Below, in pieces: positions 1,593 through 5,217 of a stretch of DNA of 47,765 bases (positions are counted from its first letter, which is position 1; each line of letters begins with the position of its first letter). The DNA comes from Mariprofundus sp. EBB-1 (lineage in GTDB: Bacteria; Pseudomonadota; Zetaproteobacteria; Mariprofundales; Mariprofundaceae). A program made the position numbers and the translations under genes. The DNA lies in the NCBI RefSeq assembly GCF_003665155.1, contig NZ_RCFQ01000023.1:1-47765 (forward strand), read 5' to 3'. Under the pieces are notes generated by a model. That model saw nothing but the letters and a program-made list of their open reading frames with translations, made no database searches and was not told where the DNA came from.

Positions 1593-1789
1593 GAATCAAC
1601 AGATAGCAGGCTAGTTGTTGAATAAAGATTCAAACAAACCCAAAATTAGTAACTAAACGGTTGTTTTCGGCCAGACTCAAACAGTCAGCTGTCCTTAGTT
1701 CGAGTCCGGATTAGAGAGCAGGTCCTGAACAGAACTGGGCACGTATTGCCTCCAAAATTCATTAAAAATGCAAACCTTCAGCTTTAAGC

Positions 1790-1795
1790 TATAAT
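1790..1795 (+). promoter_or_regulatory. Possible -10 element (TATAAT) for the DUF4062 gene
   Basis: A consensus TATAAT lies about 135 bp before the DUF4062 start. The 16 to 18 bp spacing upstream holds no good TTGACA match and there is no extended TG, so this is only a candidate that might need an activator. Confidence 0.3.
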
Positions 1796-1930
1796 GAAAC
1801 AACGGAGAGTTAGCCGAAATGTATTTGTAGCCCCCGTGTTACTGAAATGGGGGAATGCATAAATGATTAATAAACACTTCAAAGCCACCCCTCTGGTTAA
1901 AAACATAATATACAGCTTGAGGATGAATAT

Positions 1931-3109
1931 ATGCCTGAGAAAAAAGAAGTGTTTTTAAGCTCTACCTTTCGGGATTTAAATGAATGTAGAGCATCAGTAA
2001 TTAAGGGTATTGAGTCACTTGAAGCTTTTTCTTGTGATGGTATGGAAAAATTCACAGCAACGCCTCATGCTCCACTAGAAGAGTGCCTTAGGAGAGTTGA
2101 GAGGTGTGATATTTACGTTGGAGTTCTTGCAAGTTTTAGAGGTGGGAGCCCTAACGGTAGTAATATGTCATTTACTGAGCATGAGTATGAGTGTGCTAGA
2201 GAGCTAGGACGCCCAATTATTTTTTTTATGGCTTCAGAGTCATTTCTTACCCCCATCAGCATTAGGAACTCAGATTCAGATCATGAGGAACAGGAAGCCT
2301 TTAAGGAGAAAATAAAAAATAACCATGTGGTAAATTTTTTCAGTGATCCAGAAGAACTAAGGAGCAAGGTTGTTGAGGCCTTATCAAATTGGGAGTACCA
2401 GCTTAAATCAGGAATTAATGTAAACCTTGAAATAGGCTTGTATCATGTTGTTGTGAAAGGTCGAAAAAGCATCGAGATAAGAACACTTAATGTTAGTGAG
2501 GGTTCCCCATGTGAAATTCACCCAAATAAGGGGGATTGGCATATCCAGTGGATTACTGTCTTTCAAGATGATCATCCATCACCAATGGTCTTGGATTTTT
2601 CTTCAGGGGTGATGCCAGAAGAAGTTAGCTTCTTTCGGAATAGTACGGCGACATACAAACCGAGCTTCTTGGGGAGCCGGGAAATTGCTGAAATTGATGA
2701 GCCAAGATTCGAAGAGATAAAAAAGAGCGTTTATGCGTTGCTTCTTGAGCCAGGCAAAGCCAATCGCCTGACCGACAGCTCATCTCCTTCATCTCAAGGG
2801 GTGCATCTATTAACAGAAGGAGCTTATATTATATGGGTGGAAGGAGAAGGCGGAGCCGAGGTTTTTCAGGCTGGCTCCTCTCTCGGGATATCAACTTGTG
2901 GTGATCCATTCGTTTTTGCCGTGAATGAAAACAGCAATATATTTGTAAAGGTGCATGGGGAGTTGAATTTATTTCAATTAGAATACGGTATGACTCCTAC
3001 TAGTTATATTGAAACTATTAGAGCTAATGATACGATTGAGTGGTCAAATCCAACTCAAGGAAGACCCAGTAGGATGACTCCTTCAAAGAACTGTTTTTAT
3101 ATAAAATAG
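1931..3109 (+). CDS. DUF4062 domain protein, island cargo
   Basis: 392 residues. The N-terminal ~110 residues carry the DUF4062 signature: VFLSSTFRDLNECR at residues 7-20, LRRVERCDIYVGVLAS with a following glycine-rich turn, and the FTEHEYECARELGRPII segment. This domain has a Rossmann/TIR-like appearance and is usually the N-terminal part of STAND-type ATPases or other larger proteins with signalling or defence roles (family knowledge, function unproven). Here the rest (about 165-392) has no NACHT/NB-ARC P-loop or repeats I recognise and reads as beta-rich. The start has GAGG 8 bases upstream. It is the only plus-strand gene in the visible island and stands alone, as defence cargo often does. 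Specific function unknown. Confidence 0.75.
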   Translation: MPEKKEVFLSSTFRDLNECRASVIKGIESLEAFSCDGMEKFTATPHAPLEECLRRVERCDIYVGVLASFRGGSPNGSNMSFTEHEYECARELGRPIIFFMASESFLTPISIRNSDSDHEEQEAFKEKIKNNHVVNFFSDPEELRSKVVEALSNWEYQLKSGINVNLEIGLYHVVVKGRKSIEIRTLNVSEGSPCEIHPNKGDWHIQWITVFQDDHPSPMVLDFSSGVMPEEVSFFRNSTATYKPSFLGSREIAEIDEPRFEEIKKSVYALLLEPGKANRLTDSSSPSSQGVHLLTEGAYIIWVEGEGGAEVFQAGSSLGISTCGDPFVFAVNENSNIFVKVHGELNLFQLEYGMTPTSYIETIRANDTIEWSNPTQGRPSRMTPSKNCFYIK

Positions 3110-3221
3110 AAACTGTATATTACTAGTCAATTCTTGGTATTGAATGACCAGTTGAGATCACCGCCGAAAGCAGCCGTTCAGCGTAAACCCCTGTAGCAAT
3201 TCGATAAAGTTAGATTGCACA

Positions 3222-3983
3222 TCAATTACTTTGATCTATAGGTCGTTTGTAACTCGTTAAAGTCCTATAAGTGATCATTCTAGAATTGTGAATATCATTG
3301 GCAGGACTAACTTTCAATTTTCCATCGACATACTCAATACACTTAATCTGAGGGTGAGGAACATCATCGCCCATAGCAACAAGTCTATTAAAAATAAGCT
3401 TCCAACTTAAACCTTGCTCTGTTTGATTAATCACTTCCTGCAAAGGCTCTTTCCACCATGATGGGCTTTCCCCTGCTGCTTTCCTAGAGGCTGTCGTCTT
3501 TTCTTCAAAGCTTTTCATTCCAAATATAGGGCTTGCACCAAATAAGTTCCTCATAATGGCTTCAGCTTGTTTCAGCCTCATAGAAAGACTCATAACAGTT
3601 GTAATATTTGGGATAGTTTCACTTAATTCTTTGAGTAGTACATCAGCTATAAGTAAGACCATCGAAGCTGCTTGATGAGCTGAAAGGTTCACTTCATTTT
3701 CATCACCACAGTAGTAGCAAAATGCCATCCAATACTTAAATGGCTCATCCACTTCACATCCAAACATTTCTGCATTACCTTTTAATGAGTCTACCCATAT
3801 AGAATCATCTACTAGCTCACATAGTTTCCTATAAAACTCATTAGCCGCTATAAATGCTTCATCCTCACTAGAATGTCCCCATCGAGCCCACATAATCGGA
3901 AACTGAATTTCATGAGAAATTTTTTTATTAAAGCTAGAACCATCCTTAAGGAAGCTTTTTAAATATGGTAACTCTGGATTCAC
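3222..3983 (-). CDS. Unrecognised island protein encoded directly behind the recombinase
   Basis: I do not recognise this ~253-residue protein. It is soluble, with no signal peptide or membrane segment, is rich in aromatic and charged residues, and has Trp-containing segments (PIMWARWGHSSEDEAF, DSIWVDSL, SWWKEPL). The C-terminal part ends in a compact basic segment (SRMITYRTLTSYKRP). The reading frame is open from a GTG at 4016 that overlaps the recombinase stop, but the GTG at 3983 has GAGGG just upstream and is preferred. It directly follows the recombinase gene on the same strand and is probably cotranscribed with it, so it may be an element-maintenance or cargo gene. No function assigned. 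Confidence 0.65.
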   Translation of the reverse strand: MNPELPYLKSFLKDGSSFNKKISHEIQFPIMWARWGHSSEDEAFIAANEFYRKLCELVDDSIWVDSLKGNAEMFGCEVDEPFKYWMAFCYYCGDENEVNLSAHQAASMVLLIADVLLKELSETIPNITTVMSLSMRLKQAEAIMRNLFGASPIFGMKSFEEKTTASRKAAGESPSWWKEPLQEVINQTEQGLSWKLIFNRLVAMGDDVPHPQIKCIEYVDGKLKVSPANDIHNSRMITYRTLTSYKRPIDQSN

Positions 3984-3990
3984 ACCACCC

Positions 3991-5004
3991 TCACATAGCC
4001 AACTTATCAAACACACTATCTGTCACAGACTGCACTCTCTCAGATGAGAGGTGAACGTATTTTTTTGTCGTCTCATAGTTTTTATGACCCAATACAGCTT
4101 GAATGTCTGGCCCTGTAGCGCCTGCATTAGCTAAATACGAAGCACAGGTATGACGAAGATCATGAAATCTAAAGTCTTTAACAGCCGCAATTTCTAATGC
4201 CTTCACCCAATGCTTACGAAATACAAATGGCTTGTTTGTGTTTGTTGCTGAAAAAATAAGGGCATCATCTAGCCCTCTATGCTTAAGTATCAATTCAAGT
4301 ACAGGTAACGGAAAAGAAACCATTCTATCGCTACCATTCTTAGTGTCTTTCAATACGGCTGTACGATTAGAGAAATCAATATCAGACCAACATAGCTTTA
4401 ACAGTTCGCCTCTACGCGCTCCTGTCATTAGAGCCATCGTTACAAGCAGTGTGAGCTTGTTCCATTCAGATACAGCATCTACTGCTCTACATGCTTCCAG
4501 TAGATTCAAACGCTCTTCATTCGTTAAATAACGTATTCTATTTTTTGCTTCTTTATATGATGGAGCGTTTAGCACTGGGTTTTCACCAGTGTAACCTACT
4601 TTCTTTGCAAACCTGAACAGAGCAGAGAGGCATGATTTCATACGGTTGTGGGTGCTATTAGATACCGTCTTGCGATAGGCATTCAAAAAGCCTGCAACAT
4701 CTTCTGTGCTGATCGTTGCGAGCTTTCTATTACCTAGTCTATCACTCCACCATGAAATACGGAGGTGATTGGTGTGATCCTTGCCATCCCATTCAGCAAG
4801 ATATTCAAGAATAAGTTGTGAGAGAGTGATATTACGCCAGCGCGTACCTACTTTGCGGTAGTTATCTTCGTTATCTTTGATCCATTGCAATAGATCTGTT
4901 TTGTATCGCATGGTTTTTGTTTTGAGCAGACGGCCTTGTTTATCTTTGATAATAGCCTTAAAGACATGACCTGATTTTCTGTTTAACTTGATGATAGTAG
5001 CCAA
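3991..5004 (-). CDS. Tyrosine recombinase / integrase
   Basis: A site-specific recombinase of about 337 residues that would integrate and excise the island at the tRNA-Met gene. It has an N-terminal arm-binding region, a core-binding SAM-like domain (around TLSQLILEYLAEW to LFRFAKKVGYTGENP) and a C-terminal catalytic domain. The catalytic set is visible: Arg in TGARRGELLKL, Lys in the KDTKNGSDR beta-hairpin, HDLRHTCASYLA (His and Arg), LGHKNYETT (His) and the nucleophile Tyr in KKYVHLS. The open frame reaches a TTG at 5019, but the TTG at 5004 sits 8 bases after GGAGG and yields a typical MATIIKLNRKSG start. It is flanked upstream by palindromic repeats and then the tRNA. Confidence 0.93.
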   Translation of the reverse strand: MATIIKLNRKSGHVFKAIIKDKQGRLLKTKTMRYKTDLLQWIKDNEDNYRKVGTRWRNITLSQLILEYLAEWDGKDHTNHLRISWWSDRLGNRKLATISTEDVAGFLNAYRKTVSNSTHNRMKSCLSALFRFAKKVGYTGENPVLNAPSYKEAKNRIRYLTNEERLNLLEACRAVDAVSEWNKLTLLVTMALMTGARRGELLKLCWSDIDFSNRTAVLKDTKNGSDRMVSFPLPVLELILKHRGLDDALIFSATNTNKPFVFRKHWVKALEIAAVKDFRFHDLRHTCASYLANAGATGPDIQAVLGHKNYETTKKYVHLSSERVQSVTDSVFDKLAM

Positions 5005-5020
5005 GAGAGCCACCTCCAAA

Positions 5021-5140: not shown

Positions 5141-5217
5141 TGGTGGCGCTTCAGGGACTCGAACCCCGGACACCCGGATTATGATTCCGGTGCTCTAACC
5201 AGCTGAGCTAAAGCGCC
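5141..5217 (-). tRNA. tRNA-Met (CAT), elongator type; island integration site
   Basis: A complete cloverleaf with encoded CCA. Acceptor arms GGCGCTT and AAGCGCC pair fully, with A as discriminator and CCA at 5141-5143. The D arm is GCTC/GAGC, the anticodon arm is CCGGA-ATCATAA-TCCGG with anticodon CAT, and the T arm is CGGGG-TTCGAGT-CCCTG. The first base pair is a normal G-C and the sequence resembles elongator tRNA-Met more than initiator. A tRNA-Ile(CAT) cannot be fully excluded, since its identity depends on lysidine modification. The recombinase gene lies just past the 3' end, so the 3' part of this gene is the likely attachment core. Confidence 0.93.

Follow-up and report, generated by a model that had tools for sequence, protein, structure and literature searches.

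Among the described antiphage systems, the closest to the gene analysed here is Swarozyc, introduced in a preprint of May 2026 as a system of the DUF4062 proteins, a family of TIR-like NADases (PMC13174449). According to this preprint, five bacterial DUF4062 members were challenged with phages, and strong defence was seen above all with two of these members. In the case of KpSwz (PDB 10wc, 11cq, 11cv), the phage portal activates the protein by way of the auxiliary domain, and E97 is required (PMC13174449). KpSwz is a single protein, in which an N-terminal DUF4062 TIR-like NADase of ~150 aa with a conserved glutamate is followed by an auxiliary arm. The preprint describes this arm as helical stalks plus an HTH/winged auxiliary domain ringing the portal, and the authors propose that an arm gathered on a virion protein realigns the TIR-like domains (PMC13174449).

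Here, we describe a gene with the same layout in a 47,765-nt stretch of DNA from Mariprofundus sp. EBB-1 (the window), in which the part following the DUF4062 domain differs from the KpSwz arm and resembles a beta tail-fibre-type module (Table 1). An SD-like GAGG precedes the ATG of the gene by 8 nt, and the ORF is no chance product, since its 392 codons far exceed the longest stop-free run of 214 codons in 500 shuffles of positions 1631-3220. In its own genome, the protein was the sole match to the full-length query (E up to 1). Desulfoferrodoxin, MLLE and beta-cyanoalanine synthase were also considered as identities of the protein and rejected, all matches being sub-threshold.

Table 1. Features of the effector gene and its surroundings (positions in the window).
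Feature	Position	Strand	Basis or remark
DUF3631 gene, truncated by contig end	1-1092	-	PF12307 E 4.1e-26
DUF4062-fibre-module fusion gene, 392 aa	1931-3109	+	intact ORF, ATG start
DUF4062 domain, residues 1-152, TIR-like, putative NADase	1931-2386	+	PF13271; KpSwz E 2.1e-6; AlphaFold2 model
E85, predicted catalytic glutamate, S-F-T-E-H-E motif	2183-2185	+	alignment
Linking segment, residues 153-217	2387-2581	+	no detectable relatives
Phage tail-fibre-type module, residues 221-366	2591-3028	+	HMM 69.7 bits; PHROG 1419/5939; IMG/VR relatives
R-N-S-T-A-T-Y motif, residues 236-242, corresponding to RASTATY of phage modules	2636-2656	+	alignment
Closing motif QLEYGMTPTSYIET, residues 349-362, cf. 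phage QLEAGAFPTSYIPT	2975-3016	+	alignment
264-aa protein, family unknown	3222-4016	-	overlaps 3' end of integrase frame; strand opposite to effector
Tyrosine integrase of island	3991-5019	-	PF00589 E 9.2e-28
tRNA-Met, likely attachment site	5141-5217	-	46-nt exact copy of 3' end at G000:C5:71178-71223

Sequence, predicted fold and the predicted catalytic residue, all in the N-terminal half, place the protein among the DUF4062 TIR-like proteins. The Pfam model PF13271 matches residues 7-89 with an E value of 1.2e-19 (70.7 bits against a curated cut-off of 24.7), and the phmmer alignment to the solved KpSwz chain extends across residues 4-147. E85 is invariant in all eight rows of one alignment (A3) and all 20 rows of another (A9), and it stands opposite an alanine at chain position 84 of 10wc, which fits the E97A mutant if the offset in chain numbering holds. 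Based on an AlphaFold2 model of residues 1-167, calculated from a 20-row alignment (pLDDT 88.9, pTM 0.86), we are confident in predicting a TIR/NDT-like alpha-beta fold for this region. A structure search with the model retrieved NDT 8pqt (6.2e-6), the plant TIR of RPS4 (2.0e-5) and also the SARM1 TIR. By Z score, the fold resembles DNPH1/NDT enzymes (DNPH1, 13.8) as well as TIR NADases and related TIRs, namely SPARTA TIR-APAZ (12.6), RPS4 TIR (11.9), TIR-STING (11.8) and SARM1 (11.5); with SPARTA, TIR-STING and SARM1 the effector-domain fold is shared, whereas the sensors differ. The KpSwz entries were absent among the fold matches listed for the model, the structure library running to April 2026 and perhaps predating them. 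By analogy with the DUF4062 family, we infer that the effector hydrolyses NAD+.

In a 78-row DUF4062 tree, the query stands alone on a long branch. It falls outside a clade of 42 rows (support 98/94), most of them short DUF4062 proteins, in which KpSwz is present not itself but through very similar rows such as L069. The five rows nearest to the query by tree path are long ORFs of 695-1362 aa (L231 counted as a 985-aa frame). With the DUF4062-STAND, NB-ARC and nSTAND proteins, the effector has in common an N-terminal DUF4062 and these long ORFs as nearest rows, but it differs from them by having no NTPase: in the C-terminal 241 aa, no P-loop NTPase family was matched at E up to 10, which rules out a STAND architecture for the 392-aa protein. 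This agrees with the earlier note on this DNA, which had read the gene as an N-terminal DUF4062 domain without an ATPase. Its further premise of a usual link between DUF4062 and STAND found no support, as any single NTPase family matches at most 6 of 91 DUF4062 C-termini in a sample that leans viral (67 from viral contigs, 16 from genome contigs, 7 from whole-genome searches and the query; set A10, thinned for redundancy and trimmed at 400 aa). Pfam domains found in some of the other C-termini comprise NTPase, TPR and metallopeptidase domains, and two families are widespread, phrog_15411 in 63 and phrog_9489 in 30 of the 91, neither of which matches the effector. A match to a tail family occurs in one of the 91, namely the effector itself. 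These distributions bear on the reading that the protein is an abortive NADase of the Swarozyc kind, sensing the portal by an unrelated arm, with an incidental fibre resemblance. The N-terminal domain is the same as in KpSwz and the portal is the known KpSwz trigger (PMC13174449), but this reading is very unlikely in our view, because the common arms of the family, phrog_15411 and phrog_9489, are missing here.

The C-terminal half had been called unrecognised beta-type sequence in the earlier note. Its beta character is borne out as a prediction of moderate confidence, whereas the sequence proved to be recognisable. In the PHROGs, it matches the tail families 1419 (E 9.6e-6) and 5939 (E 6.7e-5), which are also matched by all seven phage module proteins scanned. 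We also built an HMM from 13 phage modules, leaving out the query protein, although similarity to the query had led to these rows. It gives residues 221-366 of the query a score of 69.7 bits, compared with a maximum of 3.3 among 1000 shuffled sequences. A tblastn search of phages with the C-terminus returned 146 records at E up to 10, the best among the matches listed being a tail fibre (E 3e-4), and of the 30 records listed, 27 bear a tail or tail-fibre annotation and three bear none. With the full protein at 1e-5, tblastn found no phage match, and among plasmids the C-terminus gave 18 records (best listed E 0.1). A single-sequence scan of viral contigs was without match for the full protein, and for the C-terminus none of three pattern matches was confirmed; the alignment-based scan of IMG/VR confirmed at least 52 module relatives from 600 candidate stretches, 32 of the 52 loci being read as ORFs. 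The best IMG/VR match listed covers residues 65-209 of the C-terminal half (E 7e-16, relative to the candidates only), and these relatives extend the module through FQLEYGMTPTSYIET.

Within the aligned core, VSFFRNSTATY...EIAEIDEPRFEE...LLLEPGKANRL of the effector faces VSFKRASTATY...FKIADIDEPRFEK...LLIEGQRTNHI of phage Ioannina, and the pattern R-x-S-T-A-T-Y ... P-R-F-E ... L-L-x-E ... N ... Q-x-E-x-G-x-x-x-S-Y-I is shared with Lambda-like side tail fibres and the tail proteins of PHROG 5939/1419. The frame is intact at 22-35% identity to the 13 phage rows, and the module retains 12 of the 21 columns that are invariant in the phage rows and 15 of the 29 that are nearly so, with the core motifs kept; the other nine invariant columns are lost, so that phage-like assembly may be gone. 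Taken together, profile and motif matches show, at the level of sequence, that residues 221-366 share descent with phage tail-fibre/virion proteins. In bacteria, too, the module is found in tail-gene surroundings: loci were followed in five of seven other genomes, and in four of the five the module gene has tail genes as neighbours (baseplate, sheath, tape-measure or others). At the fifth (L086), the match lies inside a protein of a lysis/amidase-labelled PHROG, and a tail-fibre match follows farther on in the same stretch. Among 78 genomes of the source's class, three contain the module: the own genome, G024, where the module gene sits among baseplate and sheath genes, and G039, where the protein that carries it is 586 aa long and matches tail family 5939 weakly.

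The predicted structure of the C-terminal half is all beta with a mean pLDDT of 61, reaching 81-90 at residues 299-348 and 78-79 at residues 349-368. A structure search, proposed for this half by the earlier note, found no clear housekeeping fold. The best VIA-align match is CBM60-type (Z 7.1, weak and in the range that the tool calls common), followed by one at Z 6.3 that is described as "two families of calcium-dependent carbohydrate binding modules" and is presumably CBM36. Foldseek against BFVD reported 462 matches when E values up to 10 were allowed and none at 0.001. Of six related phage proteins, three have CBM_4_9 or Laminin_G_3 hits, each of which stays under the curated cut-off. These resemblances would suit a module that is a generic oligomerisation or CBM-like glycan-binding arm, with a trigger other than a virion component (sugar, envelope damage or nucleotide signal). 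We regard this as unlikely, considering that a Z score of 7.1 is common for the tool and that the trigger of Swarozyc is a virion protein (PMC13174449).

Despite its module, the effector protein is no tail fibre. In contrast to tail fibres, it has no tail N-terminus and its gene lies outside a virion gene cluster, the neighbours being the integrase, one protein of unknown family and DUF3631. The protein ends ~20-26 residues past the module, and in two of the six phage proteins a sub-cut-off Laminin_G_3 follows the module.

The gene is cargo of an AT-rich, integrase-driven island at tRNA-Met, and this setting upholds the island-cargo reading of the earlier note as well as the long upstream region it had noticed. 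The GC content of the effector-gene segments is 0.35-0.43 compared with 0.49-0.50 in trpS/scpA/uvrC (named by eye from translations), and 442 bp separate the ATG of the effector gene from a small divergent ORF at 1279-1488. A consensus scan of these 442 bp found no promoter-like site on the + strand. For the 264-aa protein downstream, searches of Pfam to an E value of 1, of the PHROGs to 10 and of PADLOC to 0.1 found nothing. Since the window begins at the end of its contig (C16), the far end of the island lies outside it; within the window, the island genes that can be named are the integrase and DUF3631, and no virion or lysis gene is among them. The absence of such genes from this part of the island speaks against the gene being the island's own weapon, either directed against a helper or rival phage or virion-borne, instead of a host defence. 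Such a role would fit cargo of an integrase island and the presence of DUF4062 genes in viral contigs, where 154 of 206 pattern matches were confirmed, but we consider it scarcely likely at all. As further features of the upstream region, an imperfect long hairpin is located at 1567-1620 of the window, in the gap that separates the effector gene from the small divergent ORF, at the site of an Rfam match to mir-4041, and GTTCGAGTCCGG at 1698-1709 looks by eye like a tRNA T-arm, possibly an old attachment-site remnant within the island. A cis RNA 5' of the gene was dismissed as a candidate, the mir-4041 matches being the sole ones and falling far short of the gathering threshold (25.5 and 25 bits against 74). 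The exact 46-nt copy of the tRNA-Met 3' end on contig C5 lies ~3.5 kb from the end of that contig, and it is only a guess that C5 and the contig of the window join. Besides, C5 harbours a second small integrative element (L217, G000:C5:65997-71223), flanked by exact copies, 29 nt and 46 nt in length, of tRNA-Met 3'-end sequence; it encodes an integrase (Arm-DNA-bind_2) and a replication protein (REP_ORF2-G2P).

So far, the fusion of DUF4062 and fibre module is a singleton. The module HMM found no module in 141 other DUF4062 ORFs, comprising 80 from viral contigs (the best 80 of the 154 confirmed), 39 from genome contigs (39 of 150 stretches confirmed in a scan with two patterns, which samples part of the DUF4062 genes only) and 22 from whole-genome searches, where long DUF4062 ORFs are visible in part because the loci were taken with ~1.5 kb of flank. 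The first 119 ORFs screened include 113 distinct ones, and six are under 250 aa and perhaps cut short. One stretch, L137, matches the module HMM weakly (E 0.019), in a 190-codon stretch at 2681-3250 outside its DUF4062 ORF. In four overlapping genome samples, the full-length query was matched in 3 of 100 genomes (E up to 1e-3, own included), 11 of 397 (own included), 7 of 369 and 10 of 385 (one module-only), and outside the own genome no match spanned both halves. In literature searches within PMC, no defence effector fused to a tail-fibre module was recognised among the papers listed, though variant spellings may hide reports.

Because the fusion is a singleton, an accidental origin has to be weighed, that is, a chance gene fusion or an assembly join with a C-terminal half without selected function. 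The middle segment also agrees with this reading: residues 149-222 had no significant phmmer match among the collected DUF4062 and fibre proteins, and the pLDDT is under 50 at residues 149-210. Nevertheless, we judge it quite unlikely, since the gene is one uninterrupted frame, its segments are island-like in GC with no large jump at the join, the contig extends into host genes, and the module has diverged while keeping its core motifs. A diverged module in an intact frame with this share of columns kept (12/21 and 15/29) is unlike a recent accidental fusion.

We return to the role of a defence effector, which the earlier note had considered possible. It is backed by the function reported for the family (PMC13174449), the conserved glutamate, the fold and the island; on the other side, PADLOC had no match for the protein at E up to 0.1 in its 2023 library. 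Our leading reading, to which we give slightly less than an even chance, is a single-gene abortive-infection NADase with a captured virion module as its sensing or clustering arm. The TIR-like domain (residues 1-152), with E85 as catalytic residue, would be inactive until clustered, and the fibre module (221-366) would most likely act as the arm that senses or oligomerises. Once a phage has infected the cell, the module might engage a virion component made late in infection; candidates are a fibre of that phage from the module's own family, the partner with which such a fibre assembles, and the usual docking target of the fibre module. Such engagement would gather the TIR-like domains, and NAD+ depletion would lead to cell death before phage release. 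Each of these steps is inferred by analogy: the NADase activity and its autoinhibition, the activation upon clustering, the abortive infection and the role of the module as sensor. A narrower form, in which the protein is an "integrated decoy" receptor whose captured fibre piece is built into, or docks with, phage fibre trimers or assembly factors and thereby switches the NADase on, is plausible but somewhat unlikely.

Most likely, by the same analogy, the effector would work like Swarozyc. We do not file it there, as its auxiliary arm differs and the portal trigger is a finding on KpSwz: compared with the KpSwz arm as described, the C-terminus matches tail families and is predicted to be all beta. 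A tail-fibre module in place of the Swarozyc arm suggests recognition by co-assembly or by a shared fibre partner. Integrated decoys are a concept from plant NLRs, and if the proposed sensing is true, a bacterial immune effector would likewise use a built-in piece of a virion protein to sense phage. Phage escape would then be hard without altering the fibre fold that sets the phage's own host range. The fusion would also widen the DUF4062 NADase family, in which activation by phage has so far been elucidated with KpSwz and its portal-binding arm (PMC13174449), and the effector is a compact protein that allows a direct test of the trigger.

Further DUF4062 proteins with other C-termini were noticed along the way. 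A 411-aa protein of Thauera (L174, with L177 and L178 as close relatives) joins DUF4062 to a zinc metalloprotease-like C-terminus with HEFGHVLGLAHEH and is an apparent NADase-protease fusion; Matrixin and Astacin each match one of the 91 DUF4062 C-termini. Two Treponema proteins of 392-393 aa (L185, L189) carry DUF4062 with another, unassigned C-terminus. In the genus of the source, a 507-aa DUF4062-like protein (L004, G002:C28) is encoded immediately 3' of a gene that by eye resembles a restriction-modification methylase, and a species of the same genus has a DUF4062 protein (L002, G002:C11) that is Swarozyc-like, by eye from its translation.
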